Of a stretch of 64,000 nt of DNA, positions 5,682-15,394 are shown piece by piece; within the stretch, counting starts at the first letter, position 1; the number at the start of each line of letters is the position of its first letter. The DNA lies in NCBI GenBank assembly GCA_021781575.1, contig JAJXWP010000002.1, positions 62,001-126,000 on the forward strand, read 5' to 3'. A program made the position numbers and the translations under genes. The notes below the pieces were generated by a model. That model had not been told where the DNA came from and ran no database searches. It worked only from the letters and a program-made list of their open reading frames with translations. This DNA comes from Pseudomonadota bacterium (GTDB lineage: Bacteria > Pseudomonadota > Alphaproteobacteria > Rhodospirillales > Magnetospirillaceae).

Positions 5682-5808
5682 CGGAAGCCTTTCTCCTTTT
5701 TTCGGGCGAGATGGTCTGGACAGGCTATCTACGGTCGATATTGTGATGCCTTTCTGTTGATTCAGACAGCGGCTGCGGCCGGCCGGACCGCGACTTGGAG
5801 GGGTGGGT

Positions 5809-8800
5809 ATGGATACGCCCGGCGAGAAGGATCCCGGCAAGGATGGAGGCGGGAGCGCCAAGCCTCCGCTTGCCGTGGTCGGCATCGGTGCCTCGGCCGG
5901 GGGATTCGAGGCGATGCGCAGTTTCCTGCTGGCCATGCCGCCCGACAGCGGTCTCTGTTTCGTCTACATCCAGCACTTGGCACCGGACTATAAGAGCCTG
6001 ATGGCCGAACTGCTGGCGCGGTTCACCAAGATGCGGGTGGCGGAAGCGGTGGACGGCATGGCGCTGGAGCCGAACCTCGTGTTGGTTGCTCCGCCCAACC
6101 GCTATGTGGCGGTGGTGGACGACCATCTGCGGCTGACCGAGCCCATCGAGCCGCGCGGCGTGCGCCTGCCGATCGACTTCTTCCTGCAGTCCCTGGCTCA
6201 CGAGAAGCGTGAGGCGGTCATCGGCATCATCTTGTCGGGCGCCGGAAGCGACGGTGTGCTGGGCGTGAAGGCGATCAAGGAATGCGGCGGCATGGTGCTG
6301 GCAGAAGAAGCCGCCGCCTATGATACCATGCCGCGGACCGCTATCGAGACCGGCCATGTCGACTGTGTTTTGCCGACCGCGAAGATGCCGGAGATGCTGC
6401 TGGCGTTCGCCAGTCATGACTATGTCACACAATCCAATCGTGCCAAGGAATACTCGCAAGACACATTCATTCGTATTATGAATGTAATTCAAACACATAC
6501 AAAGCGGAATTTTAAGGAATACAAGAAGAAAACGGTAATCAGGCGGATCGAGCGGCGGATGGGGCTCAATCGCATTAATGACATGGAGGTATATGTCGAG
6601 TTTTTGCGAAATAGTTCTGTCGAGATTGCCGCTTTGGCGAAAGATTTATTGATCAGTGTGACGAATTTCTTCCGCGATAGCGAATCCTTCGAGTCGCTTC
6701 GGCGAGAGGTCTTGGTCCCTCTGGTCCTGCGAGCATCGCCGGAACGTCCGTTGCGCGTCTGGGTGGCCGGTTGCGCCACCGGTGAAGAGGCCTATTCGGT
6801 GGCGATGCTGCTGATCGAGGCGTTCAGCGACGCTGGACGGGAATATGCCGCCCAGATCTTCGCCACCGACATCGATACGGACGCCCTGGAAGTGGCCCGC
6901 ACCGGCCTTTATCCCGAGTCGATCGAGGCCGATGTTTCCCCGACCCGCCTGGCCCGCTTCTTCACGAAGGAAGGAATTTTCTACCGGGTCACCAAGCAGT
7001 TGCGCGAATCGGTGATGTTCGCCGTGCAGAATCTGCTGACCGATCCGCCGTTCTCCAAGATGGATCTGATCACCTGCCGCAACCTGCTCATCTATATCGA
7101 GCCGGATGTGCAGAAGAGCGTCCTCAGCCTGTTCCATTTCGTCCTCACCGAAGGCGGCGCCTTGATGCTGGGAAGCTCGGAGACCATCGGGCGCCTGACC
7201 AACCATTTCGAGCCGATTTCCAAGAAGGACCGGATCTACCGCAGGGTCGGCGCCACGCTGCTCAGCCATGTGCAGTTCCCGTTGCTCGCGATGGAGGAGC
7301 GGGGTGGCGTCGCCGTCGCTTCCAGCCATGCCGGAACGGGGCGCGAACCGCTCCCCGCGGAGCTGGCCCGCCAGGTGCTGCTCGAGCAATACGCGCCGGC
7401 TTCGGTGCTGGTCAATCGCCGCGGGCAGGTTTTGTATTTCTATGGCGACACGACGAAATATCTTGAATTCCCGACCGGCGAGCCGAGCCAGGATCTGATA
7501 GCCATCGCTCGCGACGGCCTGCGGACCAAACTGCGCGCGGCATTGCATCGGGCCATTCAGTCGGACGAAGAGATTTCGATCGGAGGAGTTCGCCTGCGGC
7601 GCAACGGTGGCTATTGCCAGACACGGTTCCGCGTCGTACCGCTGCAACGTTTCAGAGGCACGAGCGGCCTACTGCTGGTCAGTTTCACCGATGAGCCGGA
7701 AGCGCAGCCCGAACAGCCCGGCGCGGGTGAGCATCCTGACAAGGACGATGGGGCGATCAGGCACCTGGAATCGGAACTGCAGGCGACCAAGGAAGACCTG
7801 CAGAGCACGATCGAAGAACTGGAAACCTCGAACGAGGAGCTGAAGGCCTCGAACGAAGAGATTATGTCGATCAATGAAGAACTTCAGTCATCAAATGAAG
7901 AACTGGAAACTTCAAAAGAAGAACTGCAGTCTCTCAATGAGGAATTGACCACCGTCAACAGTCAGTTGCACGATAAGGTTGATGAACTTGAGACAACCAC
8001 CAACGACCTGGTCAATCTGCTATCCAGCACGGACCTCGCGACGATTTTCCTCGACACCGAGCTCAGGATCAAACGGTTCACTCCCTCGATCAACCGGCTG
8101 TTCAATTTAATCCCCTCGGACATCGGCCGGCCGGTCAGCGATATTTCTCAGAAGTTCTACGACGACAGCTTGCTGCCCGACTTGAAAGCCGTCTTGGCCA
8201 AGCTGGTCCCCGTCGAAAAGGAGATTGCGACGATGGACGGCGGTTATTGCATCCGCCGGATCCTGCCCTACCGCACACAGGACAATCGGATCGAAGGGGC
8301 AGTGGTCACCTTCACCGACATCACCCAGCTCAAGACGATGTCGGAACGCCTGGAGTTGCGCGCGCAGCGCGGCGGCGTGGTGATCGAGATCGGGCAGCAC
8401 GCCCTGTCCGGTGTCGAGCCCGACAGCCTGCATGCCATGGCGCTGCAAGCGGTGGCGGAGACGCTGAAGACCGATCTGGTCTGCCTTTTCCAACCGGGTA
8501 CCGAGGGACAGGACCTTCACTTGTGCGGCCATCATGGGGAGCCGGCGGCACTTCCGCCGCTCACCGTCGGCAAGGATGGGGCGGTCGACGTCGGCTATGT
8601 CTTCTGGGCTCGCGACAGCCTGCTGGTGAGGGATTTCAGCCGGGAAAAGCGCCTCCGCCCGGCCCTGAGAGCGGTACGGCCGGATATCGCATCCTGTATC
8701 GCCACGGTCATCGATGGTCGTTCCGGCCCGGCCGGCGTACTGGTCGCCTATGCCTGCTCCAGCCACCATTTTTCCGATGATGATGTCGAGTTCCTTCGGG

Positions 8801-9591
8801 CCATCGCCAATCTGCTTGGCATGGCCTCCGAGCGCCGACAGGCCCAGTTGGAGATCGAAGCGGCACGGGATGCGCTGGCCGAGGCCAAGGTCAGGGCCGA
8901 GCAGGCCAGCGATGCCAAGACCCGCTTCCTGGCGGCCGCCAGCCATGATTTGCGCCAGCCGGTGCAGGCCGCCAGTCTGTTCCATGGGGCTCTGGTTTCC
9001 GCCAACAAGGACAAGAAGCTGGGGCGTATCATCGAAAATCTCGGCAGCAGCCTCCATGCCATCGGCACTCTGCTGGAAAGCTTGCTCAATATCTCGAAGC
9101 TCGATGCCGGCGTGATCCGGATCGAAAAGCGCACTCTGCCGCTGGATGAGGTCTTGCAGCCCCTGGCGGCGCGCACCGCCGCGCTTGCCGAGGCGAAGGG
9201 CCTGCAGCTTCGCTATGTGCCGACCCGCGGCGCGGTCCATACCGACCCGGAACTGTTGGCGCAGATGGTGCAGAACCTGCTGTCCAACGCCATCCGCTAT
9301 ACCGAGCGCGGCAAGATCCTGGTGGGATGCCGGCATCGCGGCAGGCGCCTCGATCTTGCGGTTTGCGACACCGGGATCGGTATTCCCGAAGGGCATCTGG
9401 CAAGTATTTTCGCCGAGTTCTACCAGGTCAGCAACGAGGCGCGGCAGTCGTCGAAAGGACTGGGCTTGGGCCTCTCCATCGTCGAGCGGATCGCCCGCCT
9501 GCTCGACTGCCCGGTGAGCGTTCGCTCAACGGAAGGCAAGGGCTCGATCTTTATTGTTTCGATCCCGCTGGCGGATCGCGCCGTATCGTAG
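5809..9591 (+). CDS. CheB-CheR-PAS-GAF hybrid histidine kinase
   Basis: 1260 residues from the ATG at 5809, which has GGAGGGG (5797-5803) 5 bases upstream; a GTG at 5803 would lie inside that site. Domain order: CheB methylesterase (about 20-205; Ser29 in GASAGG, His56 in YIQHLAP, Asp148 in GSDG, no receiver domain); CheR methyltransferase (about 215-480; TNFFRD, VAGCATGEEAYS, KMDLITCRNLLIYI); a long coiled coil (about 650-735) of repeated EEL-x-SNEE units; PAS (740-845); GAF (855-1010); HisKA with SHDLRQP (from about 1040); and HATPase with N-box QNLLSNAIRYTERG, DTGIGIP and GLGLGLS. It ends without a receiver. The CheR N-terminal part (6425-6690) is more AT-rich than the rest. The 3' end overlaps the convergent CheB gene by 41 bases. 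The phosphorylation target is unknown. Confidence 0.93.
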   Translation: MDTPGEKDPGKDGGGSAKPPLAVVGIGASAGGFEAMRSFLLAMPPDSGLCFVYIQHLAPDYKSLMAELLARFTKMRVAEAVDGMALEPNLVLVAPPNRYVAVVDDHLRLTEPIEPRGVRLPIDFFLQSLAHEKREAVIGIILSGAGSDGVLGVKAIKECGGMVLAEEAAAYDTMPRTAIETGHVDCVLPTAKMPEMLLAFASHDYVTQSNRAKEYSQDTFIRIMNVIQTHTKRNFKEYKKKTVIRRIERRMGLNRINDMEVYVEFLRNSSVEIAALAKDLLISVTNFFRDSESFESLRREVLVPLVLRASPERPLRVWVAGCATGEEAYSVAMLLIEAFSDAGREYAAQIFATDIDTDALEVARTGLYPESIEADVSPTRLARFFTKEGIFYRVTKQLRESVMFAVQNLLTDPPFSKMDLITCRNLLIYIEPDVQKSVLSLFHFVLTEGGALMLGSSETIGRLTNHFEPISKKDRIYRRVGATLLSHVQFPLLAMEERGGVAVASSHAGTGREPLPAELARQVLLEQYAPASVLVNRRGQVLYFYGDTTKYLEFPTGEPSQDLIAIARDGLRTKLRAALHRAIQSDEEISIGGVRLRRNGGYCQTRFRVVPLQRFRGTSGLLLVSFTDEPEAQPEQPGAGEHPDKDDGAIRHLESELQATKEDLQSTIEELETSNEELKASNEEIMSINEELQSSNEELETSKEELQSLNEELTTVNSQLHDKVDELETTTNDLVNLLSSTDLATIFLDTELRIKRFTPSINRLFNLIPSDIGRPVSDISQKFYDDSLLPDLKAVLAKLVPVEKEIATMDGGYCIRRILPYRTQDNRIEGAVVTFTDITQLKTMSERLELRAQRGGVVIEIGQHALSGVEPDSLHAMALQAVAETLKTDLVCLFQPGTEGQDLHLCGHHGEPAALPPLTVGKDGAVDVGYVFWARDSLLVRDFSREKRLRPALRAVRPDIASCIATVIDGRSGPAGVLVAYACSSHHFSDDDVEFLRAIANLLGMASERRQAQLEIEAARDALAEAKVRAEQASDAKTRFLAAASHDLRQPVQAASLFHGALVSANKDKKLGRIIENLGSSLHAIGTLLESLLNISKLDAGVIRIEKRTLPLDEVLQPLAARTAALAEAKGLQLRYVPTRGAVHTDPELLAQMVQNLLSNAIRYTERGKILVGCRHRGRRLDLAVCDTGIGIPEGHLASIFAEFYQVSNEARQSSKGLGLGLSIVERIARLLDCPVSVRSTEGKGSIFIVSIPLADRAVS

Positions 9592-10525
9592 GCGGCATCG
9601 CCGAGACCAGCTTCCGCAACGCCGCCTCGTGCCGCTCCAGTTCGGCGATGCGCCGATGCAGACGCTCTGCGAGAGAGGGGTTTCCGGAGCGCGCGGTCCG
9701 TTCCGCCAGTCTGCGGTAAACGCGCAATTGGTCGTGATGCAGGCGCAAAGCGCTCCACACCGCGCGGAGGGTCTCCATTCCCATCGAGGCCAAAAGAGCT
9801 TGCGGGGCGTATTGATGACCCAACTCGCAGCGATACCGCTGCAGGCCGGCCACCGCCAGTTCCTGCAGGGGGCCGCCGCAATCCGGGCAAATATAGACCG
9901 CCCCTGTTGGCAAGTCGGCCGGTGCCCCGACATCGGCCGGCACGGCGGGGAGAGGAGGCAAGGCCTCCTCGGTGAGCTGGTGGAGCAGGGCGGCGATCGC
10001 GCTTGCCGGCACCACATGGTCGATCGCCACGTTGTCGATGGCGTTCGCCGGCATTTCGGCGAATTCGGCGTCGAGGGGATCCTGGACGATGGTGGCCCCG
10101 CCCGCTTGCTTCAGCACGTGCAGGCCGAAGGTCCCGTCGTCCAGGGTGCCGCTCAACAGGACCCCGACGGCGGCCCGGCCGCGCGCCGCGGCCGAGCAGA
10201 ACAACACGTCGATGGCCGGCCGGACGCCGTTCTGTTGTGGTTCCCGGTTCAGTGCCAATCGATTGCCGGTGACCAGCAGGTGGCAGTCGGGGCGCGCCAC
10301 ATAAGCCCGCCCCAACTCGAGCGGCATGCCGTCCTCGGCGTCGACCACCGGAAAGTTGCCCGCCCGGGCAAGAATAGACTGCAGCATCGAGGGCCGCTGA
10401 GGCGCCAGATGCTGGGTGACCAGCACCGAGGCCGGCAGGGTCGGCCGGAGTCCGGAAAAGATCCGGCGCATCGGCTCAAGACCACCTGCCGATGCGCCGA
10501 TCACCACGAGGTCGCGATTGTGCAA
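9551..10525 (-). CDS. cheB: Stand-alone CheB-type methylesterase with C-terminal zinc ribbon
   Basis: 324 residues. The CheB catalytic triad is visible: Ser in VIGASAGGLEP, His in VTQHLAPQ and Asp in SGTLDDGTFG. There is no N-terminal receiver domain, so activity is not controlled by phosphorylation in the classical way. After the catalytic domain (about residues 1-190) comes a CPDCGG ... YRCELGHQY module, a likely zinc ribbon, then a helical tail rich in Arg and Leu. The start is TTG, supported by an AGGGAGGG ribosome-binding site 6 bases upstream and by the need to keep the first beta strand (LVVIGAS). The gene is convergent to the hybrid kinase and overlaps its end. A functional link to that protein is inferred from location and shared domain type only. 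Confidence 0.88.
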   Translation of the reverse strand: MHNRDLVVIGASAGGLEPMRRIFSGLRPTLPASVLVTQHLAPQRPSMLQSILARAGNFPVVDAEDGMPLELGRAYVARPDCHLLVTGNRLALNREPQQNGVRPAIDVLFCSAAARGRAAVGVLLSGTLDDGTFGLHVLKQAGGATIVQDPLDAEFAEMPANAIDNVAIDHVVPASAIAALLHQLTEEALPPLPAVPADVGAPADLPTGAVYICPDCGGPLQELAVAGLQRYRCELGHQYAPQALLASMGMETLRAVWSALRLHHDQLRVYRRLAERTARSGNPSLAERLHRRIAELERHEAALRKLVSAMPPTIRRDPPAGSKQ

Positions 10526-12694: not shown

Positions 12695-12721
12695 CCGGCC
12701 CGGCCGTCAGGAACCTTTTTT
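12691..12721 (+). terminator. Possible terminator of the MoxR-VWA pair
   Basis: CTGAC (12691-12695) pairs with GTCAG (12706-12710) around a GC-rich palindromic centre, followed by six T residues at 12716-12721. The T-run is also the 3' end of the convergent MarR-type gene (its Lys-Lys codons). Confidence 0.45.
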
Positions 12722-13204
12722 CGGTCGCGGGTTGTCGTCGTCCTTGGCGGGGACGGTCATCTGGCCCAAGAGATCGGTCAGGGTGTTGTGCAGGGCGACT
12801 TTTTCGTGGGGTGGGAGAAGGGCGATCACGCGGGCCAGCCGCCGCAAGGGATCCTGCGATAGGGCGTCCCACCCGCGAGGGGTCAAGGCGATGCGGCGGG
12901 TACGGTCCTTGGTCCGTTCGGCGTCGACGCTGACCAGCCCCTTCCTCGCCAGGACAGCCACGGTTCGCGAGGCGGAACTGTGGCTGACGCCGAAAAACTC
13001 GGCGAGCGAGCCGACCGTCCGCTTGCCGGCCGAGTTATGGCCAAGCCACCGCAATGCCGACCACTGGACGGGGCGCAGCGAGTCAGTGAAACACTCAGCC
13101 TGGGTCAGGCGCCCGATGCGGTCGAGCAATGTAGCGGTCGCAAACGGAAGCGGATCGAAGTCCATGATGATGCGTGTAAAGAATTCGCTGAACGCATCAA
13201 TCAT
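12707..13204 (-). CDS. MarR-family transcriptional regulator
   Basis: 165 residues if it begins at the ATG at 13204; a second in-frame ATG at 13165 would give 152. Neither has a clear ribosome-binding site, so the start is uncertain; an in-frame extension further upstream runs through AT-rich spacer and is rejected. The winged helix-turn-helix is clear: VGSLAEFFGVSHSSASRTVAVLARKG, then the wing around ERTKDRTRRIALTPRG. Flanking helices would form the dimer interface. The gene is divergent from the GGDEF/EAL gene across a 435-bp spacer with three GTGC-N5-GCAC palindromes, one overlapping its own candidate promoter. Ligand unknown. Confidence 0.85.
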   Translation of the reverse strand: MIDAFSEFFTRIIMDFDPLPFATATLLDRIGRLTQAECFTDSLRPVQWSALRWLGHNSAGKRTVGSLAEFFGVSHSSASRTVAVLARKGLVSVDAERTKDRTRRIALTPRGWDALSQDPLRRLARVIALLPPHEKVALHNTLTDLLGQMTVPAKDDDNPRPKKGS

Positions 13205-13255
13205 ATGCTCGAAACATAAAATTTCAATGCGGCTATTGTATCGAAAAAAAACTAA

Positions 13256-13270
13256 TGTGCATACGGCACA
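13256..13270. promoter_or_regulatory. Candidate operator 1 (GTGC-N5-GCAC)
   Basis: TGTGCATACGGCACA, a perfect 5+5 palindrome with a 5-base centre. It covers the -35 position expected for the minus-strand -10 box TACAAT (13240-13235) of the MarR-type gene, so binding there would block that promoter. Confidence 0.5.
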
Positions 13271-13471
13271 TAATGCCAACCATTGAGACAAATAACAGGA
13301 AAGCAGTATTAATTTTGTGTAATTCTGTAACTTCACAGTGTTTTATCAATCATATAAATCAACTATTTATTAAAAGTCTTGCCACGATAAATTTTCTCCG
13401 GATCCAGAGTCCCGCGAAATCGGCGATTCCGAGAACAGAAGACATCGTGCGTGAAAGTTGTGCTGGATATT

Positions 13472-13484
13472 GTGCCGAACGCAC
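13472..13484. promoter_or_regulatory. Candidate operator 2 (GTGC-N5-GCAC)
   Basis: GTGCCGAACGCAC: same half-sites and same spacing as the other two copies in this spacer. It lies 46 bases, centre to centre, upstream of copy 3. Confidence 0.45.
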
Positions 13485-13517
13485 GTCCGGCAATGCCCCC
13501 TTGTGGCGCTTAAAAAC

Positions 13518-13530
13518 GTGCAACTTGCAC
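13518..13530. promoter_or_regulatory. Candidate operator 3 (GTGC-N5-GCAC)
   Basis: GTGCAACTTGCAC, a perfect palindrome with a single central base (GTGCAA-C-TTGCAC). Its right half is the candidate -35 element TTGCAC of the GGDEF/EAL gene, 17 bases before TACTCT. Confidence 0.5.
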
Positions 13531-13639
13531 CAAAGAACCAAAATCCGTACTCTTCCATTGTCGCTTGTGCCCTGCCTCGTCGAATGCTTTCAGCCGGGCG
13601 GCCGTCGGTGACATGTGACGAGGATCGTGAGGTTGGACC

Positions 13640-15394
13640 GTGTCCGGAGAGCAAACACCCATAGCGGTATCGGCCGATCCGCCTGTCTGTTCGCTTCCCA
13701 TGGTCCCCGGCGGGCGTTGCCGCCTGTTCGAGGCCTGGGCCCAACTGATCCCGGTCGGCCTGTTCGCCACCGACGCGGCAGGGGTTTGCCGCTATGCCAA
13801 TCCGGCGATGCTCGGTCTGCTGGGGGAGGTCCCGGTCTCTTCTCCGGTACGGGATTGGTTGGGGCAGGTTCATGTCGAGGAGCGGGGTTCGGTGGTCGCC
13901 GAATGGAGCCAAGCGGTCAGTCGGGGCGAGCCGTTTCGCCGGGAATTCCGGCTGGAGGAAGGCAAGGGGGCGGCCTGGGTGCACTGCCATGCCTTTCCTC
14001 TGCGGGACCACGACGGTGCGGTGAGCGGTTTCGTCGGTGCCGTGGTCGATGCCACCGAACGCCGCGACACCCAGGCCCGGCTGGACTTTCTGGCCTACCA
14101 CGACGCGCTGACCGGCCTGCCGAACCGCGACTTGGCCCGCGACCGGCTGCGCCAGGCCATGTCGTTTGCCGCGCGCGGCGGATTCCTCGTCGCCCTGCTG
14201 CTGGTCGACATCGACCATTTCAAGATGATCAACGAGTCTCTGGGCCATTCGGCCGGCGACGCGGTGCTGATCGCCGCGGCCGACCGGCTTCGGCGGTGCG
14301 TGCGCGAGGCCGACACCATCAGCCGATTGGGTGGCGACGAATTCCTGTTGATTCTGACCGACCTGCGTGCCTCGGATGCCGTCGCCACGGCCGCGGCGAA
14401 AATCCTGCAAGCCTTGTCCGAACCGTTGACCATCGACGGGCATGAACTGGGCGGGTCGGTGTCCATCGGAATTTCCGTCCATCCCGAGGATGGCTCGGAT
14501 TTCGACACGCTGCTGGGAAAGGCGGATACCGCCTTGTACCAGGCCAAGGCGGCAGGGCGGAACACCTATCGTTTCTATGCTGAGCAGATGAACGCTGACG
14601 CCTTGCGCAACCTCGAGATCCGCAGCCAGTTGCGGTGGGCCCTGGCGCGCGGCGAGTTCGAATTGCACTATCAGCCGGTGGCCTCGGTCGCCGATGGTTC
14701 CGTCGTCGGCGTCGAGGCGTTGATTCGCTGGAACCATCCGGAACGCGGACTGGTCTATCCGGACGGCTTCATCCCGGTGGCTGAGGAAAGCGGCCTGATC
14801 GTCCCCGTCGGCGAATGGGTCTTGCAGGAGGCGTGCCGACAGGCGGCGGAATGGCGGCGCCAGGGGATGGCCCGCCTGTTCGTGGCGGTCAATTTGTCGG
14901 AAGTCCAGTTTCGCCGCGGTGACATCGCGTCCTCGGTCATCGCCGCCCTGGCGGATAGCGGGATCGAGCCTGGGCTGCTGGAGTTGGAACTCACCGAGTC
15001 GATGCTGATCGGCAGCGACGCGCGTGTCCTATCGGCGATCGACCGCCTTGCCGGCCTCGGCGTGCGGTTTTCCATCGATGATTTCGGTACGGGCTATTCC
15101 AACCTGGCCTACTTGAAGCGGTTTCAGGTGCACAAGCTGAAGATCGATCGCTCGTTCGTCGGCGGTCTCGGCCAAAGCGGGAGCGACGCGGCCATCGTGC
15201 GGGCGATCATCCAGATGGCCCGGGCGCTCAATCTCGAGGTGGTGGCCGAAGGGGTGGAGGACAGGCGCACTCTTGAGTTCCTGAGGGAACAAGAGTGCGA
15301 CCTGATGCAGGGATATTATTTCTCCAAGCCGCTGCGCAACCCGTTCAAAATGGATGGACGTCCCCTGCGGCCGGAGGCCTGGGCGGGGCTATAG
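13640..15394 (+). CDS. PAS-GGDEF-EAL cyclic-di-GMP signalling protein
   Basis: 584 residues, GTG start with GAGG 7 bases upstream. An N-terminal PAS sensor (about residues 30-150) is followed by a diguanylate cyclase domain with an intact GGDEF motif (231-235). An RxxD inhibitory site (R-E-A-D) lies five residues before it, so product inhibition is expected. The phosphodiesterase domain has an intact EAL (359-361), DDFGTGYSNLAYL, KIDRSFV and VVAEGVED. Both active sites look complete, so the protein could make or break c-di-GMP depending on the PAS input. No membrane segment is visible; it is probably cytoplasmic. The stop overlaps the convergent CDGSH gene in CTATAG. Control by the divergent MarR-type protein is suggested by shared palindromes. 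Confidence 0.94.
   Translation: MSGEQTPIAVSADPPVCSLPMVPGGRCRLFEAWAQLIPVGLFATDAAGVCRYANPAMLGLLGEVPVSSPVRDWLGQVHVEERGSVVAEWSQAVSRGEPFRREFRLEEGKGAAWVHCHAFPLRDHDGAVSGFVGAVVDATERRDTQARLDFLAYHDALTGLPNRDLARDRLRQAMSFAARGGFLVALLLVDIDHFKMINESLGHSAGDAVLIAAADRLRRCVREADTISRLGGDEFLLILTDLRASDAVATAAAKILQALSEPLTIDGHELGGSVSIGISVHPEDGSDFDTLLGKADTALYQAKAAGRNTYRFYAEQMNADALRNLEIRSQLRWALARGEFELHYQPVASVADGSVVGVEALIRWNHPERGLVYPDGFIPVAEESGLIVPVGEWVLQEACRQAAEWRRQGMARLFVAVNLSEVQFRRGDIASSVIAALADSGIEPGLLELELTESMLIGSDARVLSAIDRLAGLGVRFSIDDFGTGYSNLAYLKRFQVHKLKIDRSFVGGLGQSGSDAAIVRAIIQMARALNLEVVAEGVEDRRTLEFLREQECDLMQGYYFSKPLRNPFKMDGRPLRPEAWAGL

Follow-up and report, generated by a model that had tools for sequence, protein, structure and literature searches.

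Probable operators of a MarR-type repressor between its own gene and a divergent PAS-GGDEF-EAL gene in the Magnetospirillaceae

The spacer between two divergent genes, one for a MarR-type regulator and one for a GGDEF/EAL protein, carries three copies of the palindrome GTGC-N5-GCAC, and the question raised by this locus is whether these are operators through which the regulator controls both its own gene and a c-di-GMP enzyme. In the window, meaning the whole 64 kb stretch of DNA that was analysed, the spacer runs from 13205 to 13639 and is bounded by the marR ATG (13204-13202, minus strand) and by the GTG of the GGDEF/EAL gene at 13640. An earlier note on this DNA had placed the copies at 13257-13269, 13472-13484 and 13518-13530, and all three are found there, with one further match elsewhere in the window. 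The features of the locus are as follows.

12707..13204, minus strand: marR-type regulator gene, 165 aa, MIDAFSEFF..., start ATG 13204; PF12802 5e-11, modelled MarR fold
13235..13262, minus strand: candidate marR promoter, by consensus match only; -35 ATGCAC (13257-13262) inside copy 1, 16 bp, -10 TACAAT (13235-13240)
13255..13271 (core 13257-13269), no strand assigned: copy 1, ATGTGCATACGGCACAT, probable operator at the marR promoter; identical in the sister species, one mismatch to the clade operator
13357..13369, plus strand: IHF-like match AATCAACTATTTA, between the operators in a conserved AT-rich block; the only exact match in 64 kb
13472..13484, no strand assigned: copy 2, GTGCCGAACGCAC, palindrome lost in the sister species, with only the half GTGCCG and its flank kept
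13518..13530, no strand assigned: copy 3, GTGCAACTTGCAC, probable operator at the GGDEF/EAL promoter; identical in the sister species, exact match to the clade operator
13525..13553, plus strand: candidate GGDEF/EAL promoter with weak boxes; -35 TTGCAC (13525-13530) inside copy 3, 17 bp, -10 TACTCT (13548-13553)
13640..15394, plus strand: PAS-GGDEF-EAL protein, 584 aa, GTG start; PF08448, PF00990, PF00563; 79% identical in the sister species

Both proteins are what the earlier note took them to be. The regulator carries a MarR winged-helix domain by profile (PF12802, 43 bits against a cut-off of 27, with PF01047 at its cut-off), the OhrR profile does not match it, and its start is backed by that of the sister protein (MIDQSSEFF). 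In a structural model of only modest confidence (mean pLDDT 74), N- and C-terminal helices enclose the winged helix as in the MarR topology, with helices at residues 18-38, 45-56, 64-71 and 75-87, then the wing strands, and further helices at 119-128 and 132-149; the top structural match of this model is MepR (Z 13.0 over 132 residues, 3.7 A). The GGDEF/EAL protein was resolved by Pfam as PAS-GGDEF-EAL (PF00990 at 1.2e-48, PF00563 at 1e-74), and the signature motifs RLGGDEF and GVEALIRW can be read in its sequence, so that both catalytic motifs are apparently intact. Elsewhere in the window, positions 5803-10525 encode a protein of 1262 aa whose sequence reads as a fusion of CheB, CheR, PAS and histidine kinase; next to it, on the opposite strand, lies a CheB-like gene of its own.

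The triplet had been called very unlikely by chance, and this holds for the fixed motif: over 20,000 first-order shuffled spacers its mean count was 0.007, and none had as many as three copies. It does not hold to the same degree for the class of pattern from which the motif was drawn, as some palindrome with 4-bp arms and a gap of 0-12 bp recurred at least three times in 20 of 2000 shuffled spacers (1%). Because the motif was picked post hoc, the triplet alone is therefore only mildly unlikely. Nor did the genome-wide count proposed in the earlier note bring enrichment to light: GTGC-N5-GCAC has 70 sites in the 4.48-Mb genome, against 81 for a reversed control pattern. Shuffles and a genome-wide count at background would both suit chance repeats in an AT-rich spacer, a reading that is at most true of copy 2; for copies 1 and 3 it is contradicted by the comparative data that follow, and we regard it as next to impossible.

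The first of these comparisons is with a sister species (G003; MAG contig JAJYTF010000004.1), the sole species found in a scan of named genomes. Gene order is kept there (VWA/CoxE, MarR, GGDEF/EAL, CDGSH and DNA polymerase III alpha, the last two named from sequence and Pfam profiles), the regulator is 80% identical and the enzyme 79%, while the spacer is about 70% identical with many gaps. Within this diverged spacer every base of copies 1 and 3 is retained, interiors included, and the distance between them is 261 bp in the window and 260 bp in the sister despite intervening indels. Only five identical runs of at least 9 bp are shared by the two spacers. The longest, of 18 bp, covers copy 1; two of 16 bp correspond to copy 3 and to an AT-rich block; and the remaining two are half of copy 2, at 11 bp, and a further run of 10 bp. 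This conservation is real support for copies 1 and 3. The arrangement of a MarR gene beside a GGDEF/EAL gene was seen in these two species only; for the enzyme's relatives in G049 (63% identical) and G017 (59%), which are longer proteins with upstream regions partly read, the DNA examined held no site.

Copy 2 fares differently, having lost one arm in the sister species, so that conservation in a related species, which the earlier note had looked to, bears out two of the three palindromes. It also differs from the clade operator described below at two positions, and the idea of three equivalent operators is unsupported on both counts. We accordingly rejected copy 2 as a third operator on the loss of its palindrome in the sister; it is probably a product of chance or specific to the lineage, and thus either no operator or a lineage-specific one. 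Its surviving half belongs to CGGCACAATAT (window 13466-13476, minus strand), which is followed by CAGCA and kept in the sister despite the loss of the palindrome. We considered CGGCACAATAT-N-CAGCA as a sigma-54 site and rejected it, the GG-GC distance being 11 bases rather than 10.

The positions of the two conserved copies agree with what had been proposed for them. Copy 1 lies over the -35 of the candidate marR promoter (ATGCAC-16-TACAAT), for which the sister has ATGCAC-17-CATAAT, and copy 3 forms the -35 box of the candidate GGDEF/EAL promoter, whose 17-bp spacing recurs in the sister as TTGCAC-17-TAGTCT; in both promoters the boxes match the consensus weakly. With both putative operators on candidate -35 regions, a bound protein would be expected to repress.

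Whether the sites belong to this regulator was addressed through its homologues, sampled from 317 genomes of the order as a 10-member clade and 33 others, and supplemented with class-level relatives. TGCA-N3-TGCA occurs within 400 bp upstream of the regulator gene in all 10 clade members, where shuffled sequences lead one to expect 0.15; this ten-member group was drawn after the sites had been seen, and it coincides with a supported clade (branch support 98/92). The motif is absent upstream of all 33 other homologues of the order (0.26 expected) and of 29 class-level relatives, one of which had no upstream sequence. Since it is absent also in the closest sister group (L046 and L047, 41% identical), the motif is restricted to a small clade of one family. 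In 8 of the 10 members an exact or one-mismatch site lies 48-78 bp before the start; G049 has an exact site at -368 and a one-mismatch site at -135, and in the 4.0-Mb genome of G009 the only two matches to RTGCANNATGCAC are those before its clade regulator gene. Every clade member thus has a palindromic site at its own promoter region, a trait of the MarR family.

The genes around the regulator are far less constant. G009 has a LuxR-type regulator and an MCP-like protein there, and G049 has hemerythrin proteins; in G004, G045 and G050 the neighbours are a histidine kinase and a CheY-like receiver, joined in G004 and G050 by a divergent XRE regulator. As the neighbours vary among clade members while the site persists, the site goes with the regulator rather than with any single target. 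In related genera the clade gene is convergent with a CheY-like receiver and histidine kinase pair (L041:5228-8949, L043:914-4841 and L042:3556-6535), and in L041 and L043 it is also divergent from an XRE-type regulator, making up an uncharacterised signalling cassette.

The outer base of the site also changes with the residue that precedes SSASRT in the recognition helix, which we offer as a lead. Direct readout would predict such covariation. Where this residue is His or Arg the outer base is G or A (the window, the sister, G009 and G049), and where it is Val, Ala or Gln the outer base is T or A. At this place in the helix, different sequences such as PPASRT and GTASQT are found in the homologues that lack the site. 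The groups are few and related, so the covariation is a lead rather than proof. The palindrome of the earlier note needs a small correction: what is conserved is nTGCA-N3-TGCAn, whose outer base is G, A or T according to the regulator. Because the site tracks the clade, is absent upstream of the other homologues and has an outer base that follows the helix, this 13-bp motif is, judged by comparison of sequences, the operator of this MarR clade, to which we infer that its regulators bind. Copies 1 and 3 would then very probably be bound by the MarR-type repressor encoded beside them, at the marR promoter and at that of the c-di-GMP enzyme respectively.

Pattern searches of the window's own genome speak to how far such a regulon might extend. 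Only five RTGCANNNTGCAY sites were found, two of them within coding sequence (acetoacetyl-CoA synthetase-like and phaR-like genes, conserved as coding DNA), two before toxin-antitoxin-like genes, and one being copy 3. We rejected a wider regulon on these counts; one-mismatch matches number 57 against a background of 48, so a looser regulon is indistinguishable from noise. The two sites before toxin-antitoxin-like genes, ATAGTGCATTATGCACTAT and ATAGTGCATAATGCACTAT, are near-identical palindromes (L008:4650-4662 and L009:4269-4281, contigs C11 and C18) that sit downstream of similar gene remnants and before different genes, one zeta-toxin-like and one nucleotidyltransferase-like as named from sequence. 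They fit the MarR clade motif, perhaps through convergence. Being of the same form, they also suggest that another factor may use a similar word, and that the palindromes at our locus could be sites of such a transcription factor, which also controls marR. We consider this very improbable, given that the site tracks one MarR clade across genera with varying neighbours, is absent upstream of other MarR homologues, and has an outer base that follows the recognition helix.

The reading that we favour, and hold to be likely, is that the divergent MarR protein has its operators in copies 1 and 3 and would repress marR and the PAS-GGDEF-EAL gene together; sites that follow the MarR clade and lie in promoter-like positions support the switch proposed in the earlier note. 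A MarR dimer would bind the 13-bp palindrome, lying over the marR -35 region at copy 1 and over the -35 region of the enzyme gene at copy 3, and would most likely repress both. Release by a signal, whether a ligand or oxidation of the conserved Cys38, would allow regulator and c-di-GMP enzyme to rise together. In this scheme we infer binding, repression rather than activation, the signal, and the direction, synthesis or breakdown, in which the enzyme would act on c-di-GMP. Cys38, which ends helix 18-38 in the model, is shared without exception by the clade's ten members and the pair of sister proteins, and none of the other 26 homologues has it in this column; a thiol switch at this residue is possible.

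It may instead be that the regulator mainly controls itself, with copy 3 used for activation or, through looping, as an auxiliary site to strengthen autorepression. MarR proteins can also activate, and the nearly constant spacing of copies 1 and 3, together with the IHF-like match between them, would suit a loop. Yet copy 3 sits on a candidate -35 with a conserved -10 spacing, which is the position of a repressor, and the sister spacer holds no exact IHF consensus, itself a word that occurs in 3% of shuffled spacers. On balance we find this alternative rather unlikely. The minus-strand sequence TTTAATAAATAGTTGA (window 13358-13373), which overlaps the IHF-like match, equals the operators in its degree of conservation in the sister. 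A bolder and still less probable elaboration of joint repression would have operators 260-261 bp apart and an IHF-like bend form a repression loop that is opened by an oxidised single-cysteine MarR, so that redox would set c-di-GMP through one local switch, with the module recurring in related genera next to hemerythrins, a LuxR-type regulator or a two-component system.

Joint repression from two operators would resemble well-known systems. Repressors of the MarR, MexR, OhrR and MepR type share with this one the winged-helix fold, a palindromic operator over promoter elements and a site at the own gene; in those the divergent gene is an efflux pump, peroxidase or catabolic gene, whereas here it is a c-di-GMP enzyme and the operator is nTGCA-N3-TGCAn. 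The circuit had been called unrecognised, but control of c-di-GMP genes by MarR-type proteins has precedent in RovA and RtrC. RovA of Yersinia pestis, a MarR/SlyA-type protein, directly represses the diguanylate cyclase gene hmsT (PMC4821237). It regulates several distant virulence and biofilm genes, whereas the exact-motif sites here suggest a switch that acts locally on a divergent gene. RtrC of Caulobacter crescentus is described by its authors as lacking sequence resemblance to a defined family; it has a predicted MepR-like fold and a pseudo-palindromic motif, and controls a GGDEF-EAL gene among others in a wide regulon of 113 ChIP peaks (PMC9648850). The likeness extends to an alphaproteobacterial host, a MepR-like fold and a GGDEF-EAL target, and the breadth of the RtrC regulon sets it apart. 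The unfamiliar part is the operator and the divergent arrangement: a non-exhaustive literature search returned no MarR regulator for which this operator or a divergent GGDEF-EAL gene is described. Comparison thus gives good support to an ordinary type of local switch, with what would be a new operator and an uncommon target.

Taken at this strength, the finding defines at sequence level an operator for a MarR clade that is as yet uncharacterised, and links this operator to a c-di-GMP enzyme, a kind of link of which few are known. The way in which the outer base varies with the recognition helix lends itself to direct testing, and the module would represent a regulator whose operator stays constant as the neighbouring genes vary.
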